From Alteromonadaceae bacterium (GTDB taxonomy: Bacteria > Pseudomonadota > Gammaproteobacteria > Enterobacterales > Alteromonadaceae): 45,363 nucleotides of DNA. Numbering within the stretch: position 1 is the stretch's first letter; the number at the start of each line of letters is the position of its first letter. Location: the NCBI GenBank assembly GCA_015487235.1, contig WFQC01000167.1:1-45363 (forward strand), in the 5' to 3' direction. The notes below the pieces were generated by a model that had not been told where the DNA came from, did no database searches, and worked only from the letters and a program-made list of their open reading frames with translations. The position numbers were made by a program, and so were the translations under genes. This document shows, in pieces, positions 4,598 through 45,363 of the stretch.

Positions 4598-5167
4598 TTA
4601 AATGTTAACTTTATAATTACACTGCTTTTGTGGGCAAACTAAGACCTCACCCATGGCCATGCTACGTTTAACTAAAATGCTCCATGAGCACTGAGGGCAT
4701 GTTTTAGCAACGGGAGGATAATTAACGATATACTTACATTGAGGGTATTGATCACAAGCATAGAAAACTTTACCAAAGCGATTAGTCTTTTTATTAAGCT
4801 CTCCTTTTTTACCCTGTTTTTTACATTGTGGGCAGGCTACACCAGCATCTTTTGGTTTTTCTTCTTCAATATAATGGCATTTGGGATAATTAGTACAGCC
4901 GATAAACATACCATAACGCCCTTGTTTTACTGCCAACAAGTGTTGACATAAAGGACATTCACTACCTTCTAATATTTTATCTTCAACACGTTCATGTTCA
5001 TACAGTGGCTTACTATAATGACACTGAGGATAAGCGCTACATCCCAAAAAAGCCCCTGACTTACCTCGTTTTATTTGCAATTCGCTGCCACATTCAGGGC
5101 AAGACTCATCCACTTTTTCTAAAGCATGTTCATGGCGCGTAAATAGAGGTTTTTCTGAATTAGACAT
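4598..5167 (-). CDS. Topoisomerase-type C4 zinc-finger protein (YrdD-like)
   Basis: This 189-residue protein is built almost entirely of four tandem zinc ribbons of the kind found at the C-terminus of topoisomerase I. Each has a CPxC-type knuckle and a second cysteine pair in a CxxYPxC context: CPECG with CSAYPQC, CPLC with CTNYPKC, CPQC with CDQYPQC, and CPQC with CPQKQC. There is no catalytic topoisomerase domain. The E. coli homologue YrdD occupies the same place next to tsaC and smg/dprA. DNA or RNA binding is the likely biochemical property, but the cellular role is not established. It sits upstream of purE with a 95-bp spacer. Confidence 0.88.
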   Translation of the reverse strand: MSNSEKPLFTRHEHALEKVDESCPECGSELQIKRGKSGAFLGCSAYPQCHYSKPLYEHERVEDKILEGSECPLCQHLLAVKQGRYGMFIGCTNYPKCHYIEEEKPKDAGVACPQCKKQGKKGELNKKTNRFGKVFYACDQYPQCKYIVNYPPVAKTCPQCSWSILVKRSMAMGEVLVCPQKQCNYKVNI

Positions 5168-37289: not shown

Positions 37290-37365
37290 TGCGCAAACTT
37301 TTTACCGATAAATTTGTTATTAAAAAGTAGTTATTAATTACGAAATATTTCGTTTGAGGTCATCA

Positions 37366-38543
<1,178 letters not shown>

Positions 38544-38545
38544 CA

Positions 38546-38839
<294 letters not shown>

Positions 38840-38870
38840 TTTAAGTCCTTTGTTTAACCGCGAATTTAAT

Positions 38871-38877
38871 AGGAGGT
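38871..38877 (+). promoter_or_regulatory. Consensus Shine-Dalgarno of atpF
   Basis: AGGAGGT is complementary to the 16S rRNA 3' end and lies 6 bp before the atpF ATG, unusually strong for this window. Confidence 0.85.
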
Positions 38878-38883
38878 ACACAA

Positions 38884-39354
38884 ATGAATCTTAATGCCAC
38901 GTTAATAGGTGAATTAATTGCATTTGTCGTATTCGTAATGTTCTGTATGAAGTATGTTTGGCCACCCATTATTGGTGCCATTGAAGAACGTCAGAAAACT
39001 ATTGCTGACGGACTTGCTGCTTCAGACCGTGCTGCTAAAGACTTGGAATTAGCCCAAGAAAAAGCAACCGCCCAACTAAAAGAAGCGAAAGCTCAAGCTG
39101 CTGCAATTATTGAAGCTGCTAAAAAGCATGAAGCTAAAATAGTTGAAGAAGCTGCGGATAAAGCACAAGCTGAGAAAGAAAAAATCTTAGCTGCAGGTCA
39201 TGCAGAAATTGAAACTGAACGTAACCGAGCTAAAGAAGAATTGCGCCAACAAGTCGCAGCGCTTGCCATTGTCGGTGCCGAGAAAATTCTTGAACGTTCA
39301 ATTGATGCCGCTGCACATAGCGACATCTTAGATAAACTCGTCGCTGAGCTTTAA
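38884..39354 (+). CDS. atpF: ATP synthase Fo subunit b
   Basis: Subunit b is the peripheral stalk that holds F1 stationary. The 156-residue protein has one N-terminal membrane helix (about 5-24, [18 protein letters not shown]), then a long Ala/Lys/Glu-rich coiled coil to the C-terminus, which binds delta. This matches the 156-residue E. coli protein. A perfect Shine-Dalgarno element precedes it, and atpH begins 13 bp later. Confidence 0.97.
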
Positions 39355-39367
39355 GAGGAAAAGAGCT

Positions 39368-39901
39368 ATGTCTGAATTGACAACTGTCGCTCGTCCTTAC
39401 GCAAAAGCTGCGTTTGATTATGCTGTTGAAGGTAATAATATTGATCATTGGTTATCAATGTTAACTTTTGCTGCACAGGTTGCCGAAGATGAAACAATTC
39501 AAAATGTTATCTCTGGTGGTGCATCTGTTGAGCAAGCACAAACCTTATTTTTAAGTGTTTGTGGTGAACAAGTAGACAGCAATGGCCAAAACTTTTTAAA
39601 AGTTATGGCTGAAAATCATCGTTTGCTAGCGCTACCACAGGTATTGAAATTATTTTGCGATTTAAAAGCAGAATATGAAAAAGAAATAGCTGTTGATGTA
39701 ACGTCTGCTGTTGAATTATCAGCAGAACAACTATCTACATTAAGCGCTGCGCTTGAAAAGCGCTTGGCACGTAAAGTAAAGCTCAATTGTAAAGTTGATG
39801 CGAGTATTATTTCTGGCTTAGTAATTAAAGCTGGCGATACCGTTATTGATGGTTCAATTCAAGGTAAATTGAATCGTTTAGCAACAACTATGCAATCCTA
39901 G
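39368..39901 (+). CDS. atpH: ATP synthase F1 subunit delta
   Basis: Delta caps the alpha3beta3 hexamer and joins it to the b stalk. The 177-residue protein has the N-terminal helical bundle beginning [14 protein letters not shown], and the conserved C-terminal segment that includes [22 protein letters not shown]. The length equals the E. coli protein. It lies between atpF and atpA with 25 bp before the latter. Confidence 0.97.
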
Positions 39902-39926
39902 CACTTATGAAATAAGGGAACAGAGC

Positions 39927-41468
39927 ATGCAACTGAATTCCACTGAAATCGCCGAACTGATCAAAAAACGTATTGAACAGTTTGACGTTGTCAGCGAAGC
40001 TCGTAACGAAGGTACTATCGTTTCTGTAACAGACGGTATCATTCGTATTCATGGCCTTGCCGATGTAATGCAAGGTGAAATGATCGAACTTCCTGGTAGT
40101 CGTTATGCTATCGCATTGAACTTAGACCGTGATTCGGTCGGTGCGGTAGTTATGGGTCCTTATGCGGATCTAGCCGAAGGGCAAAAAGTTAAAGGTACTG
40201 GCCGTATTCTTGAAGTACCAGTAGGTCGAGGCTTATTAGGCCGTGTAGTGAACACCTTAGGTGAACCAATTGATGGCAAAGGCCCAATTGAACATGATGG
40301 CTTCTCTCCTGTAGAAGTTGTTGCACCAGGTGTTATCGATCGTAAATCGGTTGATCAACCAGTACAAACGGGTATTAAGTCAATTGACTCAATGATCCCA
40401 ATTGGTCGTGGTCAACGTGAATTAATTATTGGTGACCGTCAAATCGGTAAATCGGCTATCGCTTTAGATGCCATTATTAACCAAAAGAACACGGGTATTA
40501 AGTGTGTTTATGTTGCTATTGGTCAAAAAGCTTCTACTGTTGCGAACGTAGTACGCAGCTTAGAAGAACATGGCGCATTAGAAAACACTATTGTGGTTGT
40601 TGCCTCTGCTTCAGAAGCGGCCGCATTACAATATTTAGCACCTTATTCAGGTTGTTCTATGGGTGAATACTTCCGTGACCGTGGTGAAGATGCACTAATC
40701 GTATATGATGATTTGTCTAAGCAAGCTGTTGCTTATCGTCAAATTTCATTACTTTTACGCCGTCCGCCAGGTCGTGAAGCTTACCCAGGTGACGTTTTCT
40801 ATCTTCACAGTCGTTTATTAGAACGTGCTGCTCGTGTAAATGAGCAATATGTTGAACGTTTTACTAACGGTGAAGTTAAAGGTAAAACAGGGTCTTTAAC
40901 CGCATTACCTATTATTGAAACACAAGCGGGCGATGTATCTGCATTCGTTCCTACTAACGTGATCTCGATTACTGATGGTCAAATTTTCCTTGAAACGGAT
41001 TTATTTAACTCAGGTATTCGTCCAGCGGTAAATGCTGGTTTATCAGTATCTCGTGTTGGTGGTGCAGCGCAAACGAAAATCATCAAAAAACTAGGTGGTG
41101 GTATTCGTTTAGCCTTAGCACAATATCGTGAATTAGCGGCATTTGCTCAGTTTGCTTCTGATCTTGACGATGCGACTCGTGCTCAATTAGAACATGGTCA
41201 ACGCGTTACTGAATTGATGAAGCAAAAACAATACAGCCCATTATCAGTTGCTGAAACTGCAGTGTCTTTATTTGCTGCAGAAAAAGGTTATTTAAATGAT
41301 ATTGCTATCAACAAAATTAATGATTTTGAAGAAGCATTACTAACCTATGCCAATAATGAGAATGCTGAATTGATGGCTAAAATCAACGAAACTGGTAACT
41401 ACGATAAAGAGATCGAAGCTGGTTTAGCTAAATTACTTGAGTCATTCAAGTCAACGCAAACTTGGTAG
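39927..41468 (+). CDS. atpA: ATP synthase F1 subunit alpha
   Basis: Alpha subunits carry non-catalytic nucleotide sites in the F1 hexamer. The 513-residue protein has an N-terminal beta barrel, the Walker [10 protein letters not shown] near residue 170, a Walker B ending [11 protein letters not shown] near 265, and the family signature [14 protein letters not shown] near 367. The length is identical to E. coli AtpA. The ATG follows a purine-rich AAGGGAA element. Confidence 0.99.
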
Positions 41469-41503
41469 TTCGATTAACGTAATAAGTTTCGGAGAGAAGA
41501 GTC

Positions 41504-42367
41504 ATGGCCGTTGGTAAAGAAATAAAAACCAAGATCGCGAGTGTTCAAAACACTCAGAAGATCACTAATGCGATGGAAATGGTTGCAGCCAGTAAAATGC
41601 GTAAAGCGCAAGATAGCATGGCAGCATCACGTCCTTACGCTGAAAATATACGAAATGTGATCGGCCATATTGCGCTTGGTAATTTAGAATATCGCCATCC
41701 TTATATGGAAGAGCGTGAAGTTAAGCGCATTGGCTATATCGTCGTATCAACCGACCGTGGCTTGTGTGGTGGTTTAAATATTAATTTATTTAAACAAGTA
41801 CTTGCTGATGCCGCAAACTGGCAACAGCAAGGCGCTGAAGTTGATTTTGCAGTAATAGGCTCAAAAGCTACTGCATTTTTTAACAACATGGGCGCAAAAA
41901 TAGTCGCACAAGTATCAGGCTTAGGCGATAACCCGTCAGTTACCGATTTAGTTGGTAATGTGAAGGTTATGCTAAAAGCTTATGATGATGGTGAAATTGA
42001 TAAGTTGTTCATTGTATATAACAAGTTTGTTAATACCATGACGCAACAACCGACAATAGATCAATTGTTACCTTTACCTAAATCTGACGATGATGAAATA
42101 AAGCATCGCTGGGACTACATTTATGAACCTGATGCTAACGTATTGTTAGATCAATTATTGGTTCGTTATATTGAGTCGCAAGTATATCAAGGTGTAGTTG
42201 AAAACTTAGCCTGTGAACAAGCCGCACGTATGATTGCTATGAAAGCAGCTACAGATAACGCGGGTGAGCTTATTGATGATTTACAATTGGTATATAACAA
42301 AGCACGTCAAGCAGCTATTACTCAAGAATTGGGTGAGATTGTTGCAGGTGCTGCGGCGGTAGGGTAA
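41504..42367 (+). CDS. atpG: ATP synthase F1 subunit gamma
   Basis: Gamma is the central rotor shaft within alpha3beta3. The 287-residue protein has the conserved N-terminal coiled-coil helix ([27 protein letters not shown]), the [11 protein letters not shown] motif near residue 85, and the C-terminal helix with [15 protein letters not shown] near 250. GGAGAG lies 8 bp before the start. A 70-bp spacer, without anything clear in it, separates it from atpD. Confidence 0.98.
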
Positions 42368-42392
42368 TTTTTCGTAATTTAATCATAGGTAA

Positions 42393-43823
<1,431 letters not shown>

Positions 43824-43874: not shown

Positions 43875-44300
43875 ATGGCACTATTTACTGTAAATCTGAA
43901 CGTGGTTAGCGCAGAAGAAAGCTTATTTTCTGGCAGCATTAAATCGCTACAGATCACAGGTAGTGAAGGTGAATTAGGCATTATGCCGGGTCATGCACCT
44001 TTACTGACCTCACTAAAACCTGGTATGGCACGTATCGTAAAAGATAATGACGAAGAAGAAGTTATTTATCTTTCTGGCGGTATGTTAGAAGTTCAGCCTA
44101 ATCATGTAACGGTATTGGCAGATGTTGCCTTACGTGCAGATGATATAGATGAACAAGCAGCTATAGAAGCAAAAGAGCGCGCTGAGCAACATCTTAACAA
44201 TCACGGCAGTGATGTTGATTTTGCAGAAGTCGCCAGTGAATTAGCTCGGGCTATTGCACAATTACGCGCAATTCAAGTCGCTAAAAAGAAAGTACAATAA
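43875..44300 (+). CDS. atpC: ATP synthase F1 subunit epsilon (operon copy)
   Basis: Epsilon binds gamma and the c-ring and regulates ATP hydrolysis by a movable C-terminal helix pair. The 141-residue protein has the N-terminal beta sandwich ([40 protein letters not shown]) and two C-terminal helices from about residue 88. A GGAGGT element is 7 bp before the ATG. It is the last gene before a strong terminator, and a second epsilon gene follows that terminator. Confidence 0.97.
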
Positions 44301-44324
44301 CATACTAAGTTTCAGTGTATTATT

Positions 44325-44360
44325 AAGCGGTTATTACTAAGAGGTAATAACCGCTTTTTT
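44325..44360 (+). terminator. Strong terminator closing the atp operon
   Basis: AAGCGGTTATTA and TAATAACCGCTT are perfect 12-bp arms around an 8-base loop, and the stem runs straight into a T-run. It lies 25 bp after atpC and only 27 bp before the second epsilon gene. Confidence 0.9.
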
Positions 44361-44386
44361 ATGGCTAAATTTTAAGGTTTATTGAC

Positions 44387-44806
44387 ATGTTATATACCAT
44401 GCGTTTAAACATTGTTAGTGCCGAAGAAGAACTTTTTTCGGGCTATATCAAATCATTACAGATCACAGCAAGCGAAGGTGAATTAGGTATTATGCCAGGT
44501 CATGCCCCTTTATTAGCAGCGCTTACACCTGGTATGGCACGTATTGTTAAAGAAAATGGCAAAGAAGAAGTTATTTATATTTCAGGAGGTATGTTAGAAG
44601 TGCAGCCTAATTGTATTACTGTGCTAGCTGATGTAGCCAAGCGAGCTAAAGATTTAGATGAAAAAGCAGCTTTAGCAGCAAAACGTTGTGCGGAAGAAAA
44701 TATTCATCTTCATCAAATGGATGTTGATTATGCGCGACTTGCCATAGAATTATCTCGAGCTATTGCTCAGCTGCGTGTTATTCAAGCAAGTAAAAGAAAA
44801 AGATAA
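44387..44806 (+). CDS. Second ATP synthase epsilon subunit (atpC paralogue)
   Basis: This 139-residue protein aligns with the operon-encoded epsilon along its whole length, at roughly two-thirds identity by eye. The shared beta-sandwich blocks include [27 protein letters not shown] and GGMLEVQPN. The C-terminal helical part is more diverged ([32 protein letters not shown]), and this is the regulatory portion. The frame is intact and key residues are kept, so it is unlikely to be a dead copy. The ATG at 44387 aligns with the start of copy 1, while a second ATG at 44399 is possible. AAGG is about 9 bp upstream. No room for a full promoter exists between the terminator and the start, so expression may depend on read-through. 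Confidence 0.9.
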
Positions 44807-44899: not shown

Positions 44900-45363
44900 A
44901 TGGAGTTATCACAGGTTGAAAAAGATTTTCATATGTCAGAGCAAACCTATAACTATTTTGTTGCTGCCGCTGTTATTGCAGCACGATTAGATCAAGCCAC
45001 CTATATTGCTAAACAGCTTTCATTGACCGCAAGTAATGCTAGAGCTGTAGCCCTTAGAGCAGGCGAAAGAGCCGCAGGATTTAGGCCATTAACTGATTTT
45101 ATAGATCGATTAGCCGAAATAACCATAACCTCATCACGAAAAATAAATAATCTTGCGGCAAAATTAAGCCAAACCTCTGCGATAAAAGTACGTGCCGATA
45201 ATGCAATTAAACATTTTAATAATGTTTATAAAAAATCGACAGACTCACCCTTTATTAACAGCCTTGACCAAGTGTTTAACCAATGCCGAAAAAAACAAGA
45301 ATTTTTAGAAAAAGAATATCGCCGGCAAATTGAAGAATTAAGTGATGAACTTGCTATGTTAAG
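44900..45363 (+). CDS. Divergent chemoreceptor-like (MCP hairpin-like) protein, partial
   Basis: An open frame runs from the ATG at 44900 past the right edge, with 154 codons visible. An internal ATG at 44933 (MSEQTYNYF) could be the true start. No signal peptide or membrane segment is seen in the visible part. Residues about 39-85 resemble the hairpin tip of methyl-accepting chemotaxis proteins, with IAKQ, a central ASNARA, RAGER, GF, then D and RLAE at matching positions. The MCP Glu in AIEAARAGE is replaced (RAVALRAGE). The rest is Gln/Lys/Glu-rich and probably coiled coil. It may be a cytoplasmic signalling or structural coiled-coil protein derived from an MCP domain. The missing end prevents firmer classification. 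Confidence 0.55.
   Translation, partial: MELSQVEKDFHMSEQTYNYFVAAAVIAARLDQATYIAKQLSLTASNARAVALRAGERAAGFRPLTDFIDRLAEITITSSRKINNLAAKLSQTSAIKVRADNAIKHFNNVYKKSTDSPFINSLDQVFNQCRKKQEFLEKEYRRQIEELSDELAML

Follow-up and report, generated by a model that had tools for sequence, protein, structure and literature searches.

The DNA stretch analyzed here (the window; 45,363 nucleotides, contig WFQC01000167.1 of an Alteromonadaceae bacterium) closes with an atp operon, two intact atpC genes in tandem, and the beginning of one further gene, as read from the open reading frames and their translations (Table 1). The two epsilon proteins share 71% identity in a gap-free alignment of 137 amino acids, and their genes match at 76% over 300 nucleotides. 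An earlier note on this DNA had claimed that a second intact epsilon paralogue follows a complete atp operon; reading frame, domain scores, and conservation within the genus confirmed this.

Table 1. Coordinates of the atp region and its downstream neighbors in the window.
Feature	Position	Strand	Description
atpI-B-E-F-H-A-G-D	37354-43823		recognizable genes, upstream of both epsilon genes
atpC copy 1 (epsilon-1)	43875-44300	+	141 amino acids; last gene of the atp operon; strong ribosome-binding site GGAGG
Intrinsic terminator of the atp operon	44325-44362	+	between the epsilon genes; 14-pair stem, 4-base loop, T-run
atpC copy 2 (epsilon-2)	44387-44806	+	139 amino acids; intact; both epsilon domains
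MCP-like gene	44900-45363	+	truncated by the contig end; weak PF00015 match; without recognized sensor or full MCP domain

The protein encoded by copy 2 resembles the epsilon subunit (AtpC) of E. coli and other proteobacteria in being full-length, two-domain (PF02823 plus PF00401), and above the curated cut-offs. Specifically, it scored 103 bits with the N-terminal beta-sandwich PF02823 (cut-off 27), 40.6 bits with the C-terminal helical hairpin PF00401 over the full model length (cut-off 24.6), 172.6 bits with the housekeeping epsilon equivalog NF001847 (cut-off 135), and 132.9 bits with TIGR01216 (cut-off 67.25). The model of the alternate N-type F1F0 ATPase epsilon, TIGR03166, gave 33.9 bits, below its cut-off of 100.1. 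The corresponding scores of copy 1 were 105 bits (PF02823), 54.6 bits (PF00401), and 188 bits (NF001847). An end-to-end alignment was also obtained between copy 2 and the E. coli epsilon chain from solved structures of F1Fo (5t4o_H, 168 bits). It differs from an ordinary AtpC in that it is a second tandem gene lying past the operon terminator, evolves faster, and is found in one genus only among those sampled.

A search of the whole genome retrieved these two epsilon N-domains and no others, together with one gamma gene. As the genome encodes only these two epsilons and a single gamma, we ruled out that copy 2 is part of another operon or of another ATP synthase. Each genome of the genus likewise has one gamma gene, the extra one in G002 being located on a duplicated contig stretch. 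In that draft, the atp region occurs on both C1 and C17 with equal gamma and epsilon-1 scores. An overlap of the assembly at the end of a contig is the probable cause, and the repeat was therefore left out of the copy count.

The tandem pair was found in all four genomes of the genus, which comprises Colwellia-like marine bacteria, at the same place and intact. About 110 loci from relatives outside the genus, analyzed with their flanks, carry a single epsilon and no second one nearby. Among the other genomes of the order sample (296), no tandem pair was detected, second epsilons being on another contig or far away. The phylum sample (249 genomes) revealed no other tandem pair among the matches listed; it was searched with the helical domain, which matches in about half of the genomes. 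Taken together, presence in 4/4 genomes and absence from relatives, order, and phylum samples mark the pair as a trait that, within what was sampled, appears restricted to this genus. Searches of open-access papers brought up no description of tandem atpC genes in a bacterium, only unrelated or plant matches. We regard the pair as a rare variation, specific to this lineage, on a known subunit arrangement, notable but modest.

With the window forming the end of a contig in a draft genome of 195 contigs, one might suspect a misassembly, a binning error, or a pseudogene in decay. However, the same arrangement is present in each of four independent drafts, and 41% of third codon positions are different between the copies. 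As the third positions agree at only 59% and the pair occurs in 4/4 genomes, chance and assembly error are excluded; copy 2 has no internal stops, neutral evolution was rejected (see below), and we attach practically no credence to an artefact or pseudogene. Recent gene conversion in the genome of the window was likewise considered and found to be unsupported, third-position agreement being only 49–59% across the four genomes.

Selection was assessed by fitting a GY94-type codon model (F3x4) to 19 sequences on a fixed topology in which each copy was constrained to form a clade. The resulting omega values, which are approximate because dS is saturated, were 0.043 (copy 2), 0.059 (copy 1), and 0.076 (single copies). 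Fixing omega of copy 2 at 1 lowered lnL by 164 and was rejected, which ruled out relaxed selection or pseudogenization. Summed over the four species, dN amounted to 0.45 for copy 2 versus 0.18 for copy 1 (about 2.5-fold), and the likewise saturated dS of copy 2 was 3.5 times that of copy 1. Purifying selection on copy 2 is strong, yet the gene is freer to change at both classes of sites; its faster change, with omega not elevated, tends to speak for weaker constraint, and its persistence in four divergent species for a use of the gene. The earlier note had advised a search for copy 2 in related genomes and had named frameshifted copies in close relatives as evidence against a role. All four genus members carry copy 2 and none shows a frameshift; with the gene intact, conserved, and under strong purifying selection, the sequences gave no such evidence.

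In a protein tree of 110 rows, the copy 1 group received a support of 98/82 and the copy 2 group of 87/86, which fits a single duplication at the base of the genus. A tree of 25 rows (140 protein columns) rejected neither copy 2 as one clade (p 0.34) nor a pairing of the window's two copies (p 0.14), so a separate origin in the lineage of the window would also be compatible with it. As either topology fits the smaller tree, the single origin of copy 2 rests on its shared position.

That position is unusual with respect to transcription. Epsilon is usually encoded by the last gene inside the atp operon, a position that does not define the protein; copy 2 lies behind an intrinsic terminator instead. 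A terminator separates the two copies in 4/4 genus genomes, with differing stem sequences and at the same place in G001–G003, and 107 of 108 relatives have one behind their single atpC. After copy 2, no terminator was found in any of the four genomes. Given the terminator between the copies, copy 2 is outside the operon proper and not its ordinary last gene, and an equal supply of both subunits is unlikely. The ATG of copy 2 is located approximately 25 bases past the T-run of the terminator. No promoter-like sites above chance were detected in the region, and none in the short gap between terminator and copy 2; low-level read-through would be the simplest route to expression.

Codon adaptation was lower in copy 2 than in copy 1 in three of the four genus genomes, which lends weak support to a lower expression of copy 2 there. 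A clearly lower codon adaptation as a general trait was rejected, since it fails in the genome of the window (0.627 for copy 2 versus 0.604 for copy 1).

Small elements were also seen around the epsilon genes. A short palindrome, CACTAAGTTTTAGTG, occurs between the atpC stop codon and the terminator in several Colwelliaceae (loci L033, L034, L062, and L085), and a degenerate form of it is present in the window near 44304–44317. A small dispersed inverted repeat of the TGTAGGTTGGGCTTTAGCCCA type precedes copies 1 and 2 in G002 (L083:3949-3978 and 4693-4718) and copy 1 in G001 (upstream in L032); it looks like a MITE-like or REP-like element.

The faster change of copy 2 at replacement and silent sites without raised omega, which speaks for weaker constraint or lower expression rather than a new function, together with the retention of nearly all invariant residues, fits a redundant dosage copy. 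Such a gene would do the same job as copy 1, be kept for a little extra epsilon, and drift faster owing to lower expression. We consider this quite possible, although a place beyond a strong terminator is a poor one for a dosage gene, and the lack of any loss across four divergent species suggests more than simple redundancy.

The MCP-like gene after copy 2 is followed by an ODP-family gene in G001–G003 (PF19583, 250 bits). Six further loci of Colwelliaceae have MCP-like and ODP genes downstream of a single atpC; this arrangement is therefore older than the duplication, and the MCP-like gene is a boundary marker outside the epsilon pair. Copy 2 is thus an insertion into the older arrangement, between the terminator and the MCP-like/ODP genes. 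The MCP-like gene was seen at L032:5166-6573 as well, and MCP-like/ODP genes are located between atpC and glmU in several Colwelliaceae.

The MCP-like/ODP genes have a similar counterpart in Treponema denticola, an MCP/ODP pair that senses oxygen (PMC7666581); in the genus, no terminator separates copy 2 from the MCP-like/ODP genes. A role of copy 2 outside the ATP synthase, for example as an ATP-binding helper of this adjacent module, was therefore weighed and is judged very improbable. Six loci have the MCP-like/ODP pair after a single atpC, a position that predates the duplication; the invariant epsilon residues would be needless outside F1Fo; and neither copy, as judged by alignment, has retained Arg92, a residue of the ATP site in Bacillus PS3.

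Upstream of the MCP-like gene in L083 (G002), an exact FNR-box consensus, TTGATTTAGATCAA, overlaps the stop codon of copy 2. Partial matches occur at a like place in G001, L033, L034, and L062, as expected by chance in AT-rich DNA, and none was seen in the window. An FNR box could place the MCP-like/ODP genes under low-oxygen control.

Concerning individual residues, 39 columns are near-invariant among 102 single-copy epsilons. Copy 1 keeps all of them (39/39), while copy 2 misses one to three, and the segment EGELGI.PGHAPLL is kept in copy 2. The earlier note had described the beta sandwich as conserved and the C-terminal regulatory helices as diverged. Numerically, this is correct for the window, where the two copies are 79% identical in the N-domain and 55% in the C-domain, but a similar contrast (means of 76% and 63%, respectively) is seen among single-copy orthologues when pairs of comparable overall identity are taken. 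The difference between N- and C-domain identity of the window pair falls on the 94th percentile of such pairs, and those of the other three genomes on the 58th, 16th, and 26th. As these percentiles are within the ordinary single-copy range, the C-terminus is not specially diverged as a rule, and this part of the note's reading was not borne out.

Two positions distinguish the copies to different degrees. At position 97 (E. coli numbering including Met), all copy 1 proteins have E or D versus A in all copy 2 proteins. Position 115 is the counterpart of Tyr114 in the mature E. coli subunit; every copy 1 protein has F there, 88 of 102 relatives have Y, and copy 2 has Y in two genomes (G000 and G003). 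Replacement of Tyr114 by alanine reduces inhibition by E. coli epsilon (PMC5990651).

These residues bear on the possibility of a regulatory switch, in which copy 2 would replace copy 1 under particular conditions and alter the inhibition of ATP hydrolysis by epsilon. The consistent exchange at position 97, the F/Y pattern at position 115, and the separate transcription context of copy 2 beyond the terminator point in this direction, and PMC6692558 describes physiological effects of truncating the epsilon C-terminus in Bacillus subtilis. On the other hand, the C-terminal divergence is no greater than in ordinary orthologue pairs, no C-terminal replacement at a near-invariant position is common to all four copy 2 proteins, and the pattern at position 115 is not uniform. 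Temperature and energy state, which the earlier note had suggested as cues, are without support. We consider a switch of this kind rather unlikely.

On balance, we think it fairly probable that copy 2 is a functional second epsilon which arose by duplication in place, is supplied in small or conditional amounts, and shares the single F1Fo with epsilon-1. Gene order and sequence comparison suggest the following course. The atpC gene was probably duplicated in the common ancestor of the genus, which would have placed the second copy behind the operon terminator and ahead of the MCP-like/ODP genes that were already downstream. Transcription of copy 2 would proceed via terminator read-through or from a weak promoter near the terminator, and its product would be present in smaller or conditional amounts. 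Both epsilons may then compete for the one gamma/c-ring site that the single F1Fo offers, resulting in a mixed population of ATP synthases. A single duplication, low expression, and incorporation into F1Fo are what we infer for copy 2. The dosage copy and the regulatory switch are both versions of a functional second epsilon, and neither they nor the shared use of one F1Fo are mutually exclusive.

Some relatives also possess a second epsilon gene (e.g., G050, G078, G141, and G286). There, it is located on another contig or far off and is assumed to belong to a whole second operon, whereas here epsilon alone is duplicated, adjacent, and accompanied by one gamma. Alternative versions of a single subunit within one ATP synthase are likewise represented by the paralogous c-subunit genes of Podospora anserina, as described in PMC4956034; that case concerns a fungal mitochondrial c subunit and was shown by experiment, while the bacterial epsilon pair is known from sequence. 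The zeta inhibitor of Paracoccus denitrificans (PMC8039183) is similarly a protein additional to epsilon that bears on the control of ATP hydrolysis; copy 2 differs from it in being a plain epsilon.

Zeta is not known to be homologous to epsilon, and the cellular purpose of inhibition by epsilon itself is debated and has mostly been studied via epsilon truncation. That the two epsilon versions inhibit ATP hydrolysis to different extents is speculative. If they did, one F1Fo could exist in two populations differing only in the epsilon brake, the second brake being supplied through read-through or a separate signal and the shares of strong and weak inhibition being set by transcription; we hold this scenario to be improbable. 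A natural epsilon pair kept apart by selection would provide two versions to compare within one enzyme.
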